From: Acidobacteriota bacterium
GTDB taxonomy: Bacteria; Acidobacteriota; Polarisedimenticolia; Gp22-AA2
Assembly (NCBI GenBank): GCA_003223165.1
Contig: QHXZ01000033.1
Span: 1-38,113, forward strand
Direction of reading: 5' to 3'
DNA: 38,113 nt
Made by a program: the position numbers and the translations under genes. Of this stretch, positions 28,104-37,503 are shown piece by piece (position 1 is the first letter of the stretch; every line of letters begins with the position of its first letter). The notes under the pieces are model-generated. The model made no database searches, had not been told where the DNA came from, and was given only the letters and a program-made list of their open reading frames with translations.

Positions 28104-30005
28104 TCACTCGTTCCCGGCGGCCCTCTGGTCGAGCCTGACCCGCGACAGCGCCTCGACCAGGTTGCCCGCCCAGCGGTAGATGTTGTGCTCCCGTACCGTC
28201 GCCCGCATCTTCGTCATGCGAGAGGCCTTCTCCTCCTGATCCATCTGCAGGGCCTGGCGCATGGCTTCGGTCATCTCCTCCACATCGTAGGGATTGACGA
28301 TCAAGGCGTCCCTCAGCTCCCGCGAGGCCCCGGTGAAACGGCTCAGGATCAGGACGCCGCCGTTGTCGTCGCGCGAGGCGACGAACTCCTTGGCGACGAG
28401 GTTCATCCCGTCGTGCAGGGACGTGACCATGCAGAAATCGGCGTGCCGGTAGAAGGGCAGGATCTCCCGATGGCTGTGGTGCCGCTTCAGGAACAGGATG
28501 GGCCTCCACACCCCGTCCTTGAATCTCCCGTTGATCCGCTCCGCCTCGGACTCCACCTCCGCCAGGAAGTCGTGGTAACGCTTGATGTGGGTGCGGCTGG
28601 GAGCCCCGACCTGGACGAAGGTCATCTCCTTGCGGTAGGCGGGGTATTTCTCCAGGAAGCGCTCGATGGCCCGGAAGCGCTCCAGGACGCCCTTGGTGTA
28701 ATCCATCCTCTCGACGCCGACGCCCAGGTGCCGCCCGGTCATCCCCAGCCCCTTGAGGAACGCCTCTCGATCCGGCTCCGGGGGGTGCTCGGAGCGGACG
28801 TCCTGAAAGGCATTGGGGAAGGCGACGCTGATCGGGAAGGGCGCGACGACCGTCGCGTGGCCCCCTCGCTGGACCTCGAACCGCTCCCAGTCCACGCGGG
28901 ATTCCAGCGTGCGGTCGACGGTCTCGAGGAAGTTGTTGCAGTGGAACTGGGTATGAAACCCGATGAGGTCCGCTCCCAGCATCCCGAGGAGGAGCTCCCG
29001 CCTCCAGGGGCAGATTCCGAAGGCCTCCGGGTTCGGCCAGGGAATGTGCCAGAAAATCGCGATCCTCGCGTCGGGCCGCCTCCGCTTGAGGAGAGCGGGC
29101 AGCAGGGCCAGGTGGTAATCCTGGATCAGGACGCACGGCTCCCCGAGCCGCTCCAGTTCGCTCAGCGTGGCCTCTGCGAACGTCCGGTTGGCCTGTTCGT
29201 AGTGGGCCCAGTCCTCCGGCCTGAACAGGGGCCTGGTGTGGGCGATGTGGCAGAGGGGCCAGAGCCCCTCGTTCGCAAACCCATAGTAGTAGCCCTCCTC
29301 CTCGTCCTTCGCGAGGGCCACCCTCTTGAGCGTGTAGAGAGGATCCTCGGGGGGGACCTTGATCCGGTTCCCTTCCTCGACGACGTCCCAATCGGCATCC
29401 CCGGCACCGTGCGCGATCCAGGTCCCGCCGCTGGCCCTCAGGACCGGGTCGAGCGCCGTGACCAGGCCGCCGGCCGGTACGATGCACTCCAGCCCGAGAC
29501 CGCGGCGGACGTGCATGTAGGGCTCCCGGTTGGACACCACGATGAGCGGCTTCCCCTGGAGCCTCTGGCGCACGTGCTCGCTCAGCCGGTCGGGCGTCCA
29601 CTGGGCTTCCGCCGCCTGCCTGAGCCTGGCTTCCTCCTCGGCCGCGGCCCTGGCGCGGGAGAGCTGCCTGGAGAACCTCTCGACCTCCCGTGCCAGCGGG
29701 TCGAAGAGTCGGACATTCGGAAGATCCGGGCGCACGTGCTCCTCGCCCGTGCGCAGTTGTCTCATCCATAGCGCCATCTGGGCGATGGGACCCGCGATGC
29801 TCCAGCGCAGGACCAGGAGCGTCACGAAGACGATCGCGACCGCCTCGGCGAGAGCCTTGAAGAAAGCCGCGCGCCATGCCGTCCAGTCGGGGGCCGCGAT
29901 CGCGGCCGGGCCCTGTCCGCCTCCCTCTTGAAAATGGGCCGCCAGGAAGGCCGCCGCCAGGGCCACGACGGCCAGCGAGATGACGAGCCTGCGCGTGATT
30001 CGCAT
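28104..30005 (-). CDS. otsA: alpha,alpha-trehalose-phosphate synthase with N-terminal TM/HAMP-like extension
   Basis: LIVVSNREPYMH, VLIQDYHLALLPALLKRRRPDARIAIFWHIPWP, MDYTKGVLERFRAIERFL, SLHDGMNLVAKEFVASR; two N-terminal hydrophobic segments and coiled coil. Confidence 0.93.
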   Translation of the reverse strand: MRITRRLVISLAVVALAAAFLAAHFQEGGGQGPAAIAAPDWTAWRAAFFKALAEAVAIVFVTLLVLRWSIAGPIAQMALWMRQLRTGEEHVRPDLPNVRLFDPLAREVERFSRQLSRARAAAEEEARLRQAAEAQWTPDRLSEHVRQRLQGKPLIVVSNREPYMHVRRGLGLECIVPAGGLVTALDPVLRASGGTWIAHGAGDADWDVVEEGNRIKVPPEDPLYTLKRVALAKDEEEGYYYGFANEGLWPLCHIAHTRPLFRPEDWAHYEQANRTFAEATLSELERLGEPCVLIQDYHLALLPALLKRRRPDARIAIFWHIPWPNPEAFGICPWRRELLLGMLGADLIGFHTQFHCNNFLETVDRTLESRVDWERFEVQRGGHATVVAPFPISVAFPNAFQDVRSEHPPEPDREAFLKGLGMTGRHLGVGVERMDYTKGVLERFRAIERFLEKYPAYRKEMTFVQVGAPSRTHIKRYHDFLAEVESEAERINGRFKDGVWRPILFLKRHHSHREILPFYRHADFCMVTSLHDGMNLVAKEFVASRDDNGGVLILSRFTGASRELRDALIVNPYDVEEMTEAMRQALQMDQEEKASRMTKMRATVREHNIYRWAGNLVEALSRVRLDQRAAGNE

Positions 30006-33557: not shown

Positions 33558-33751
33558 CGGCCCCTCCCTGGGCTCGGATCCAAAACTTGGACTTACGAGC
33601 AGAAGATAGTTTTCGTGGCGGCAGAGTCAAGGGGAGAAGGCGTGGCATTACCAAATTGCAATCCATCCTGGCGCCCTCGGTCACCTATACTTAGTGGTGA
33701 GGTGCAGTCCGGGACCGCCGTGGGCCCGGGCCAATCGTTCCGGAGGTCACC

Positions 33752-34204
33752 ATGCATCCAGCTCACCGGTACCTGACGGTCGCGGCGCTCATCCTGGCGC
33801 TCCCCCTCCCGTTTGCCATCGGGGCGCAGGCCCGCGCCGCCGAGAAGAAAGAGGAGAAGCCCGAAGCGGAGCCGTTCGGGCGGTTCACGGTGGACCAGGT
33901 GGAGCGGCGCCTCGGCAAGCCCAACGTCTACGTCTTCGACGGCAACGACCCCACGACCTACGAGGCGAACCACCTGCCGGGCGCCGTGCGCCTGAATCAT
34001 GAGGAGATCAAGGAAGGGGTCCTGCCCAAGGACAAGGCCGCCACCCTCATCTTCTATTGTATGAACCTGCTCTGAATGGAGTGCCACCACGCGGCCCGGA
34101 GGGCCGTTGACCTGGGGTACGGCGACGTGTTCATCATGCCGTCGGGGATCATGGGGTGGGTCAAGGCGGGGAAGCCGATCGTGAAGGGGGGATCTCCGAG
34201 CTAG
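33752..34204 (+). CDS. exported rhodanese-like protein interrupted by in-frame TGA at 34073-34075 (candidate Sec codon or nonsense mutation)
   Basis: FGRFTVDQVERRLGKPNVYVFDGNDPTTYEANHLPGAVRL...ATLIFYCMNLL-[TGA]-MECHHAARRAVDLGYGDVFIMPSGIMGWVKAGKPIVKGGSPS-stop; same frame and homology-like continuation after TGA. Confidence 0.8.
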
Positions 34205-34923
34205 CGGGCCGCGGCGCTCGCGCCGCCGGGCTCGAGGTCGCTGAAGGAGGTGCTCGACTGGACTCCCGTCCAGGGCCTACCGTCGAGCTCGGCGTAAGGA
34301 TAGACGAAGTAGTTCAGCGCGTCGCCCTGCTGCGCCGGGTCGAGGCGGATGTCGCGTCCGCGGGTGAACAGGACCCGGTTCGCGTCATGGGCGCCGAAGA
34401 AGTAGTCGCGGCGCGCGGGATCTTTCCAGCCTTCCGAAGCATCCACCGGCACCCACCCCAGACCGTCGACCCAGAACCGCGCCCAGCAGTGATAACCGGC
34501 GATCTCGCCGCTCTTCCGGTCGCGCGGCAGCGGGAAGCCGATCTCGAACCGGGCGGGGATGCCGGCGGCACGCGCCATGCCGATGAAGAGCGCATGGAAG
34601 TCGGTGCAGTTCCCCTTCTTGACGTTGCAGGCGTAGATCGCGTCTCCCCGGCCCCAGCCCTCCCCCGTTTCTTCATGCATCTCGTAAGGCGCGGGGCTCT
34701 TGAGGGCGAGATCGGAGATGTCCTGCTGGGCGTCCGACGCCGGGACGGGAATCCAGATACGCAGCCGCCTGGCGTCCTTGGGAAGCTCTTTGGAACGGAC
34801 CGTGTACTTGAACTCGAAGGTGCGCGACGAAACCGGCTTCGATGCGTCGGCGGACATGGCGGCGGCCAGGGCGACCGATGCCGCCAACGCCATCGCCGCC
34901 AGGGGAACCCCTCGTCCTCGCAT
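34201..34923 (-). CDS. exported transglutaminase-like protein
   Basis: GEGWGRGDAIYACNVKKGNCTDFHALFIGMARAAGIPARFEIGFPLP...GYHCWARFWVDGLGWVPVDASEGWK; Cys-His-Asp triad. Confidence 0.88.
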   Translation of the reverse strand: MRGRGVPLAAMALAASVALAAAMSADASKPVSSRTFEFKYTVRSKELPKDARRLRIWIPVPASDAQQDISDLALKSPAPYEMHEETGEGWGRGDAIYACNVKKGNCTDFHALFIGMARAAGIPARFEIGFPLPRDRKSGEIAGYHCWARFWVDGLGWVPVDASEGWKDPARRDYFFGAHDANRVLFTRGRDIRLDPAQQGDALNYFVYPYAELDGRPWTGVQSSTSFSDLEPGGASAAAR

Positions 34924-34941: not shown

Positions 34942-35409
34942 CTACCAGCTCCGCCTTCTCAAGGCGTCCGACCTCTTTCCGGCAGCTTCGATCTCCTTCG
35001 TGAGGCGCTCGAGGTCGCGATCCCAGCTGTAGGCGGGGAACTCGACTCCGGGCGGGACCATCGGCTTCAGGCCCTGGGTGGGAGTGCGCCCATCCTCCCC
35101 CCTCATGTGGCCGATGTAGATGCCAAGCAGGCCGTTCTTCTGCGCGATCGACTGTTCGATCTCGTACTTGACCCATGGACGGTTCGCCGTCTCGGCGCCG
35201 ATCAGGACCACCGTCACCGAGGTGTTCTTGAGGTGCCTCTGGATCAAGCGTTCCATCCCTTCCCGCCCCTGCTTCTTCGCCTCCTCATGCTCGCCAGGAT
35301 CGAAGAACCCCGCCACCTCCCTCCCTGCAACACCGTCCGAGTTGCGGACCTGGCTCGCCCTCCAGAGATCGCCGTCGTGGTCAAAGCTGAAGAAAATCCG
35401 TCGTGCCAT
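34942..35409 (-). CDS. TIR-like (DUF1863/ThsB-like) domain protein
   Basis: RRIFFSFDHDGDLWRASQVRNSD...GMERLIQRHLKNTSVTVVLIGAETANRPWVKYEIEQSIAQKNGLLGIYIGHMRG. Confidence 0.85.
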   Translation of the reverse strand: MARRIFFSFDHDGDLWRASQVRNSDGVAGREVAGFFDPGEHEEAKKQGREGMERLIQRHLKNTSVTVVLIGAETANRPWVKYEIEQSIAQKNGLLGIYIGHMRGEDGRTPTQGLKPMVPPGVEFPAYSWDRDLERLTKEIEAAGKRSDALRRRSW

Positions 35410-35566: not shown

Positions 35567-37141
35567 TTAAGGAGAGCTCTTGCTCTGCGCGGACGTCTCG
35601 CAGGCGTCGCCGACGCCATCCTTGCTGACATCGCTCTGGTCGGTGTTGGGGACGGTCGGGCAGTTGTCGCACGCATCGCCGACGAGATCGCCATCGGCGT
35701 CGATCTGGTCGGGATTGGGAACCCCGGGACAGTTGTCGTCGCAGTGTGCCGTCGAGCCGCCGGTGCAACGGTGGGCGGCGAACTGACCGTCGCCATCGCC
35801 ATCGTTGAGCACCCCGTCCTCGTCGAAGTCGGCGAGATCGACGTTGCGCGTGAAGACGTCCGCGTCACCGTTGCGCTGGTCGGTCCAGATGGCGTGCATC
35901 CTGCCTCCGGCGATGGTGCCCTGATCGTAATCACCGAAGCTCAGGCGGCCGCCCGGGAACACTCCATCCGATATCCGGATGTTGGGACCGAAGAAGACGC
36001 CCCCGTTGGTCGAGGTGGCCATGTAGACCGCGTAGCAACACCCATCGGGGCTGAGCCGGCGGTCCTTGAAGGTGACGTGGACGTGCCCCTCGTCGTCAGC
36101 GCTCACCGACGGCTGGTTCTGCCTGGCCTTCGTGCCCAAGGCGTCGTCGTTCACGCGCACGGGGGCGCTCCAATGATCGCCGCGATCGTCGGACCAGGCC
36201 AGCAGGATGTCGGGGTCCGCCAACCAGAAATACGACCACACGACGTAGATCCGGCCGCGATAGGGGCCGCGGCTCCGATCGACCGCGACGGGCGGGAAGA
36301 GAAAGCGCCCGTTCTGGCCTTTGAGCTCTACGGCCGGTTTGTTGATCGGGCCGTTGACCAGCCTGTGGCGTGAGAGCCAGGTCTCACCACCATCGAGGGA
36401 TCGGTCGAGGAAGACCTTTCCGTAGACCCCACCCCAGACAACATAGATTTCCCCGTCGGGGCCGACCATCGGCACGGTGCCCAATCCGTCGGCCGCGGGG
36501 CTCGAGATCGTCTTCGGCGCCGAAAAGGTCGCTCCATGATCGCGGCTCCTCGCGAAGACGAGGTGCGATCCCAGAGGAATCAAGGTGAAGTCGGCCCACG
36601 TGAGGTAGAGATCGTCGGAGGCCGGATCGACGCCGAGGAAGGGCTTGTCAGCCACGATAAGCGCGGGCAGGTCCGCGGTCTGCGAGAAGGTCTCGCCCTT
36701 GTCCGCCGAGCGGAAGACCAACAGGTGATCCTCCTCCTCAAATGTCACTGCATCCGTTCGGGTGAATAGAGCATTGATGTAGAAGGACCCGCCGCGATCG
36801 GCGACCACAGAAGGATCGCAGCTGTCGTCGAATCCCCCTTCGTTCGGAAGCGGCAGGCTGTGCCAGCTGGCCCCGCCATCGTGCGACCACCCGTACTCGA
36901 TCACGACGGACGTCGTGGTCGAGTCCCGGGTCACCTCGCACCAGACCGCGACGAGGTTGCGCGGATCGCCCGGATCGGCCGCCATGCTCGTCTCGACCTG
37001 CGGGTTACCCGAATGGTCCTGATTGATCCTCACATCGGCGGGCGGAGATGGCGAGCCGGCGGCAACGACGAACGCGGGTGCATGAGCGAGCGCCACAGCA
37101 AGAAGGACGATGAGCGCGAGGCCCACCTTCGAACGTGACAT
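35567..37141 (-). CDS. secreted sialidase/BNR-repeat-like protein with C-terminal thrombospondin type-3 repeats
   Basis: Signal peptide; repeated SxDxGxTW-type motifs ([21 protein letters not shown]); C-terminal DxDGxxDxxDNCPxVxNxDQ repeats. Confidence 0.88.
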
Positions 37142-37503
37142 GGCGGTCCTCCTTCCGTGATGAGGCGGCCTGATGTCGAGCCTGCCGGCCATATACGCTC
37201 AAAGAGGCCATCCGGCAAGTTCGATCGCCGCCCGGTGTCGACCGCCCCCCGGGATCGCGCGCAAGGCGGGAGCGAGCGACGCGGAGATCGGCGAGGTGAC
37301 CGCCGCGCTCGATACCCCCGCCGACCCTCGCCCGGGGCGGCCGCCGCAATTCGCCTCTGTCCGAGTTGTGCGGCAAGGTGCGGCCACCGGAGAACCCCGG
37401 AGCGCCCGATCAGGCCTCTCCTCTTCGTCGCTTGCGGGATTCACCTGAATGCACCGAGGTCTCGATAGGGCCAATCTTGGCGGCGCAGCGGGAGGGGATG
37501 CGC

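Follow-up and report, generated by a model that had tools for sequence, protein, structure and literature searches.

A rhodanese gene with an in-frame TGA

The window, which is the whole stretch of 38,113 nucleotides analyzed here, contains a forward-strand reading frame that starts with an ATG at 33752, ends with a TAG at 34202–34204, and has one in-frame TGA at 34073–34075. Our translation agrees with that of the initial annotation, which had placed the TGA within a rhodanese-like frame at the second cysteine of a C-x4-C motif; homologues do have cysteine in that column. The locus has the following features.

33742..33746, + strand: GGAGG, probable ribosome-binding site judged from the sequence, 5 nt before the ATG
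33752..34204, + strand: predicted selenoprotein coding sequence, ATG to TAG, 150 residues with Sec108, the TGA being conserved
33752..33838, + strand: probable signal peptide, residues 1–29, with an ARA/A type site (inspection of the translation, homologue N-termini, low pLDDT in the model)
33887..34165, + strand: rhodanese domain PF00581, residues 46–138, spanning the UGA (Pfam, AlphaFold, fold matches in PDB)
34058..34060, + strand: Cys103, the invariant catalytic-loop cysteine (alignment of homologues)
34073..34075, + strand: TGA, read as Sec108, the fifth residue after Cys103 (translation and alignment)
34082..34087, + strand: Cys111-His112 (UMECH), with Cys or Ser at 111 and His112 invariant in the aligned set (alignment)
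34091..34107, + strand: candidate bSECIS apical stem-loop GCGGCCC-GGA-GGGCCGT, loop at 34098–34100 (folding and comparison of homologues)
34201..34923, − strand: convergent transglutaminase-like gene, a neighbor outside the system, sharing the CTAG at 34201–34204 (domain search)

The read-through protein matches PF00581 with 44.7 bits (gathering cut-off 22.2) over model positions 1–101 of 102. The truncated product, ending at the TGA, reaches only 31.6 bits over model positions 1–68, and the C-terminal third is missing. Hence, the TGA cuts the rhodanese domain midway. In the AlphaFold model, residues 41–140 have block-mean pLDDT values of 95–98, with a helix from residue 110, right after Sec108, followed by a strand and a helix. 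The closest solved folds are the rhodaneses BH2092 (3nhv/3o3w), YgaP, and GlpE, and the read-through tail is confidently predicted to complete such a fold. The N-termini of most homologues have, by inspection, a signal peptide or a lipobox, on which basis the family is predicted to be mostly exported, either as signal-peptide proteins or as lipoproteins. Three homologues (L135, L136, and L139) have no clear N-terminal signal; L136 also carries a long Lys/Cys-rich repeat (KKGDCKKGDC) ahead of its rhodanese part. The gene, from an uncultured soil acidobacterium, almost certainly has its internal UGA read as selenocysteine, and the product is predicted to be a small exported sulfur-handling protein of rhodanese fold.

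We then compared the gene neighborhoods of the homologues and found no operon or gene neighbor widely common to their loci. The gene does share a CTAG with the convergent transglutaminase-like gene, as described, but this overlap carries little of the weight once given to it as a natural gene end because the neighbors are not conserved. For the same reason, the context gives no hint of the substrate. Two genes away from the selenoprotein frame, a 155-residue product (34945–35409, − strand) matches PF08937 ThsB_TIR with 75 bits and has a Thoeris-like TIR domain. A GT20 protein of trehalose-phosphate-synthase type (28107–30005, − strand) and a BNR-repeat protein (35570–37192, − strand) are ordinary.

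Homologues and the Sec/Cys column

A search of 100 related genomes for homologues of the window protein found eight acidobacterial ones, each from a different genome of the same family or order and 47–69% identical to the window protein. They include loci of Acidobacteria gp22 AA4, AA3, PMV_2.74, and AA152. Each has exactly one internal stop, which is a TGA at the same codon as in the window. In a contig scan, the single-sequence query had no match, and the alignment query found six loci. Homologues with TGA at this codon are also present in the MAGs of Deltaproteobacteria bacterium DP_38 and Byssovorax sp. In the phylum to which the Byssovorax MAG belongs, a match was found in 70 of 379 genomes; among the 29 genes read there, 13 have TGA and 16 have a cysteine codon (TGC or TGT) at the Sec column. 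Altogether, the identical TGA occurs in 24 genes, namely the window gene, the eight acidobacterial homologues, and 15 genes from other MAGs, which belong to Myxococcota where named or searched. The Cys-bearing homologues are the 16 of Myxococcota, and a more distant group with YCSNPMCRKAP, used as outgroup, also has cysteine in this column.

The alignment of homologues that had been proposed as a check gave a column filled solely by Sec or Cys, residue 108 being one or the other in all 39 aligned members. Twelve positions are invariant in the same 39 (D63, N65, A78, L91, P92, F101, Y102, C103, H112, A115, A118, and G122), and position 111 is serine in many members, giving UxxS in L116 and L135, for example. 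In a family tree built with column 108 masked, at least four changes between Sec and Cys are needed; as branch support is moderate, their number and direction are not fixed by the tree. The mean pairwise dN and dS are 0.19 and 0.61 after the TGA, and 0.31 and 0.95 before it. By this comparison of homologues, the tail after the TGA is under purifying selection rather than decayed.

The hairpin after the TGA and the Sec machinery

The hairpin CGGCCC-GGA-GGGCCG lies at 34092–34106, extends to 7 bp (34091–34107) when a G-U pair is counted, and has its loop 22 nt after the TGA, confirming the earlier observation that it sits at roughly the bacterial SECIS distance. The bSECIS model of a 2026 review requires a loop of 3–9 nt, a stem of 4–16 bp, a G among the first two nucleotides of the loop, a distance of 16–37 nt from the UGA, and an MFE of at most −7.5 (PMC13188914). 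The window hairpin lies within these limits, with a loop of 3 nt, a stem of 7 bp, GG in the loop, a distance of 22 nt, and −15.5 kcal/mol. Taken alone it is within chance (z = −1.71), and an equally good hairpin arises in about 16% of synonymous recodings (p about 0.16). A single hairpin of this kind is weak evidence and unremarkable in GC-rich DNA, and the doubt expressed on that point in the initial annotation was right.

Comparison across homologues goes beyond chance and supports a SECIS. A stem of 6–8 pairs follows the UGA in every one of the 24 TGA genes; its loop lies 20–26 nt downstream of the UGA and has a G among its first two positions. A stem score of at least 18 is reached by 22 of the 24 TGA genes and by none of the 16 Cys genes (Mann-Whitney p = 2e-7 for the scores of the two groups, a value made optimistic by the relatedness of the sequences). 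Among the nine acidobacterial genes, synonymous identity is 92% in the stem codons vs. 53% elsewhere (permutation p = 0.0008). Two compensatory pair changes are seen, from C-G to T-A at pair 3 (L116) and from G-C to C-G at pair 6 (L070), and the stem register differs slightly between clades. With a stem in the TGA genes and not in the Cys genes, frozen stem codons, and compensatory changes, the comparison makes the hairpin a convincing SECIS candidate. A search of the window's own genome with RF00031 gave no match, which is uninformative because RF00031 describes the eukaryotic SECIS.

We also looked for the Sec machinery in the window's own assembly, a check suggested along with the first reading. 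It contains selA (548 bits, contig C43), selB (349 bits, C174), and selD (366 bits, C151), all above the curated cut-offs. The selD gene (L077, G000:C151:1276-2208) contains a single in-frame TGA, a feature of Sec-type SelD, and the SelD of this genome is probably a selenoprotein itself. No tRNA-Sec was found in this assembly, where the best match is a tRNA-Ser in the ARAGORN check. The assembly is 85% complete, the more complete relatives do have a tRNA-Sec, which occurs in eight genomes from this family or order, and a gene that flanks it in two relatives (G005 and G003) is also absent from the window's assembly. An assembly gap is hence the simplest reading of the missing tRNA-Sec, though not a proven one.

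Several explanations other than Sec insertion have to be weighed. The window gene comes from a single draft MAG and has Cys homologues, which would fit a TGC or TGT codon turned into TGA by a sequencing or assembly error or by a private nonsense mutation. The initial annotation had named this as a real alternative. The same TGA recurs in 23 further genes whose surroundings are unrelated, some of them from named MAGs of other projects. This rules out a private mutation or a read error, and we give this explanation practically no weight. A decaying pseudogene, or a functional truncated protein of 107 residues followed by an untranslated relic tail, is just as improbable. It is how ordinary annotation would treat the gene, by stopping it at the TGA, but the tail evolves under purifying selection, completes the fold, and contains A115, A118, and G122, which are invariant in the 39 members.

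It is also very improbable that the UGA is decoded as something other than Sec, either by genome-wide reassignment to Trp or Gly or by programmed near-cognate readthrough. Readthrough in principle needs no special tRNA, and tRNA-Sec was not found in the window's MAG. Against this, the column alternates with Cys alone, the genome has Sec machinery, and a SECIS-like stem follows the UGA. Reassignment in particular is rejected because ordinary genes of the window genome (selA, selB, and the GT20 gene) end in TGA, so the code has not been changed genome-wide. Insertion of Sec is the reading that we prefer. The initial annotation had proposed a candidate selenoprotein and named three observations that would speak against it: a genome lacking Sec machinery, reads with a cysteine codon, and close relatives in which the TGA is followed by decayed sequence. 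None of these three checks refuted it; selA, selB, and selD are present, the same codon recurs in 24 genes from different MAGs, and the downstream sequence is selected and completes the fold. By comparison, the UGA is conserved as a sense codon, its column in this rhodanese-fold family is Sec or Cys, and the genome encodes selA, selB, and selD; we consider it very likely that the gene is a true selenoprotein with the UGA read as Sec.

Relation to known rhodanese selenoproteins and proposed chemistry

The motif of the window product is C-x4-U-x2-[C/S]-H. A c-type cytochrome haem site (CXXCH) was considered and rejected, as the window has UxxCH, residue 111 is often serine, and the site lies in a rhodanese helix. 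The 2026 review lists the rhodanese selenoprotein forms UxxS, UxxG, CxU, UxxG, and UxxxxU (PMC13188914), none of which is C-x4-U-x2-C-H. Form 1 is UxxS of PF00581, represented by WP_010941598.1 (PMC13188914 Table 1). It is likewise a rhodanese with Sec and, compared by motif rather than by the sequence of WP_010941598.1, may share the Sec site at the second cysteine. It differs in that the window has UxxCH and belongs to a family predicted to be mostly exported, although some members of this family also have UxxS. The C-x4-U-x2-S rhodaneses of three relatives (L146, L147, and L148 from G006, G005, and G004) fit the form 1 motif and may be form 1; they form a clade separate from the window family.

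The window protein stays below the cut-off of every NCBIfam model, and for the 39 members together the best E-values are modest and come from the same distant models. The best match is TsoB (NF045694, rhodanese/DsbD fusion-like, UxxxxU), to which all 39 members match weakly. Both have an x4 spacing of Sec or Cys in the rhodanese loop, but the window protein reaches 43.9 bits where the cut-off is 805, lacks the DsbD part, and has Cys in place of Sec at the first position. No true TsoB was found above cut-off in 297 genomes of the phylum, where matches fall mainly on model positions beyond the rhodanese region. LYCAU rhodanese (NF041203, form 3, CxU) is also a small rhodanese able to carry Sec; its Sec is two residues after the loop cysteine while that of the window is five, and the window protein scores 37.8 bits against a cut-off of 115. 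The PQQ-associated CXXCW protein TIGR03865 is a rhodanese relative to which 39 of 39 members match weakly, the window protein with 30 bits against a cut-off of 128. The C-x4-C rhodaneses share the fold with the window protein, both the YCSNPMC group (L090, L098, and L099) and the solved BH2092, YgaP, and GlpE. The YCSNPMC group has Cys and no TGA at the Sec column and forms a separate clade.

Two further sets of genes carry an in-frame TGA. Seven loci of the same phylum (the above L146, L147, and L148 together with L028, L030, L094, and L149) form a separate clade with YC-x3-TU, often as UxxS, and are probably further selenoproteins. L013/L150 and L095 are YCAU or YCSU rhodaneses that resemble the LYCAU motif of NF041203.

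From these comparisons, the Sec site as such may already be known, while the exported subfamily appears uncatalogued among NCBIfam and the forms of PMC13188914. We lean slightly toward regarding it as an uncatalogued family of envelope rhodanese selenoproteins, secreted or lipoproteins, with C-x4-[U/C]-x2-[C/S]-H in Acidobacteriota and Myxococcota, which switch between Sec and Cys and would act as extracytoplasmic persulfide or thiol-selenol enzymes.

Following known SelB biology, SelB carrying Sec-tRNA would bind the GG-loop hairpin 22 nt downstream and insert Sec at the UGA, and the product of 150 residues would be exported by its own signal peptide. As the fold suggests, Cys103 in the rhodanese active loop would carry a thiolate or persulfide. 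Sec108, next to the following helix at the loop's other end, may form a reversible Cys-Sec bond with Cys103 (or Cys111). A U-x2-C pair is not required, given that residue 111 can be serine. The protein would then act in the envelope, either as an oxidoreductase of thiols and persulfides or as a carrier of sulfur, and Sec would be its fast residue for attack or resolution. We infer this chemistry and role with roughly even confidence. A rather unlikely alternative accepts Sec insertion but treats the protein as a thiosulfate sulfurtransferase of the classical kind, whose chemistry would be done entirely by Cys103, with a small modulating role for Sec108. It agrees with the rhodanese fold, with the invariance of Cys103, and with some rhodanese loops that have no second thiol at that place. 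However, column 108 has Sec or Cys in 39 of 39 aligned members and none has another residue, which argues that position 108 is chemically active and makes a second chalcogen appear essential.

In ordinary annotation such genes would end at the UGA, and the C-terminal third of the fold would be lost. Their recognition adds to the rhodanese selenoproteins a subfamily predicted to be exported, in soil Acidobacteriota and Myxococcota. The family also offers a natural comparison, with Sec or Cys in one column and a hairpin that comes and goes with the UGA, which is useful for testing the rules for SECIS elements and the contribution of Sec to the chemistry of rhodaneses.
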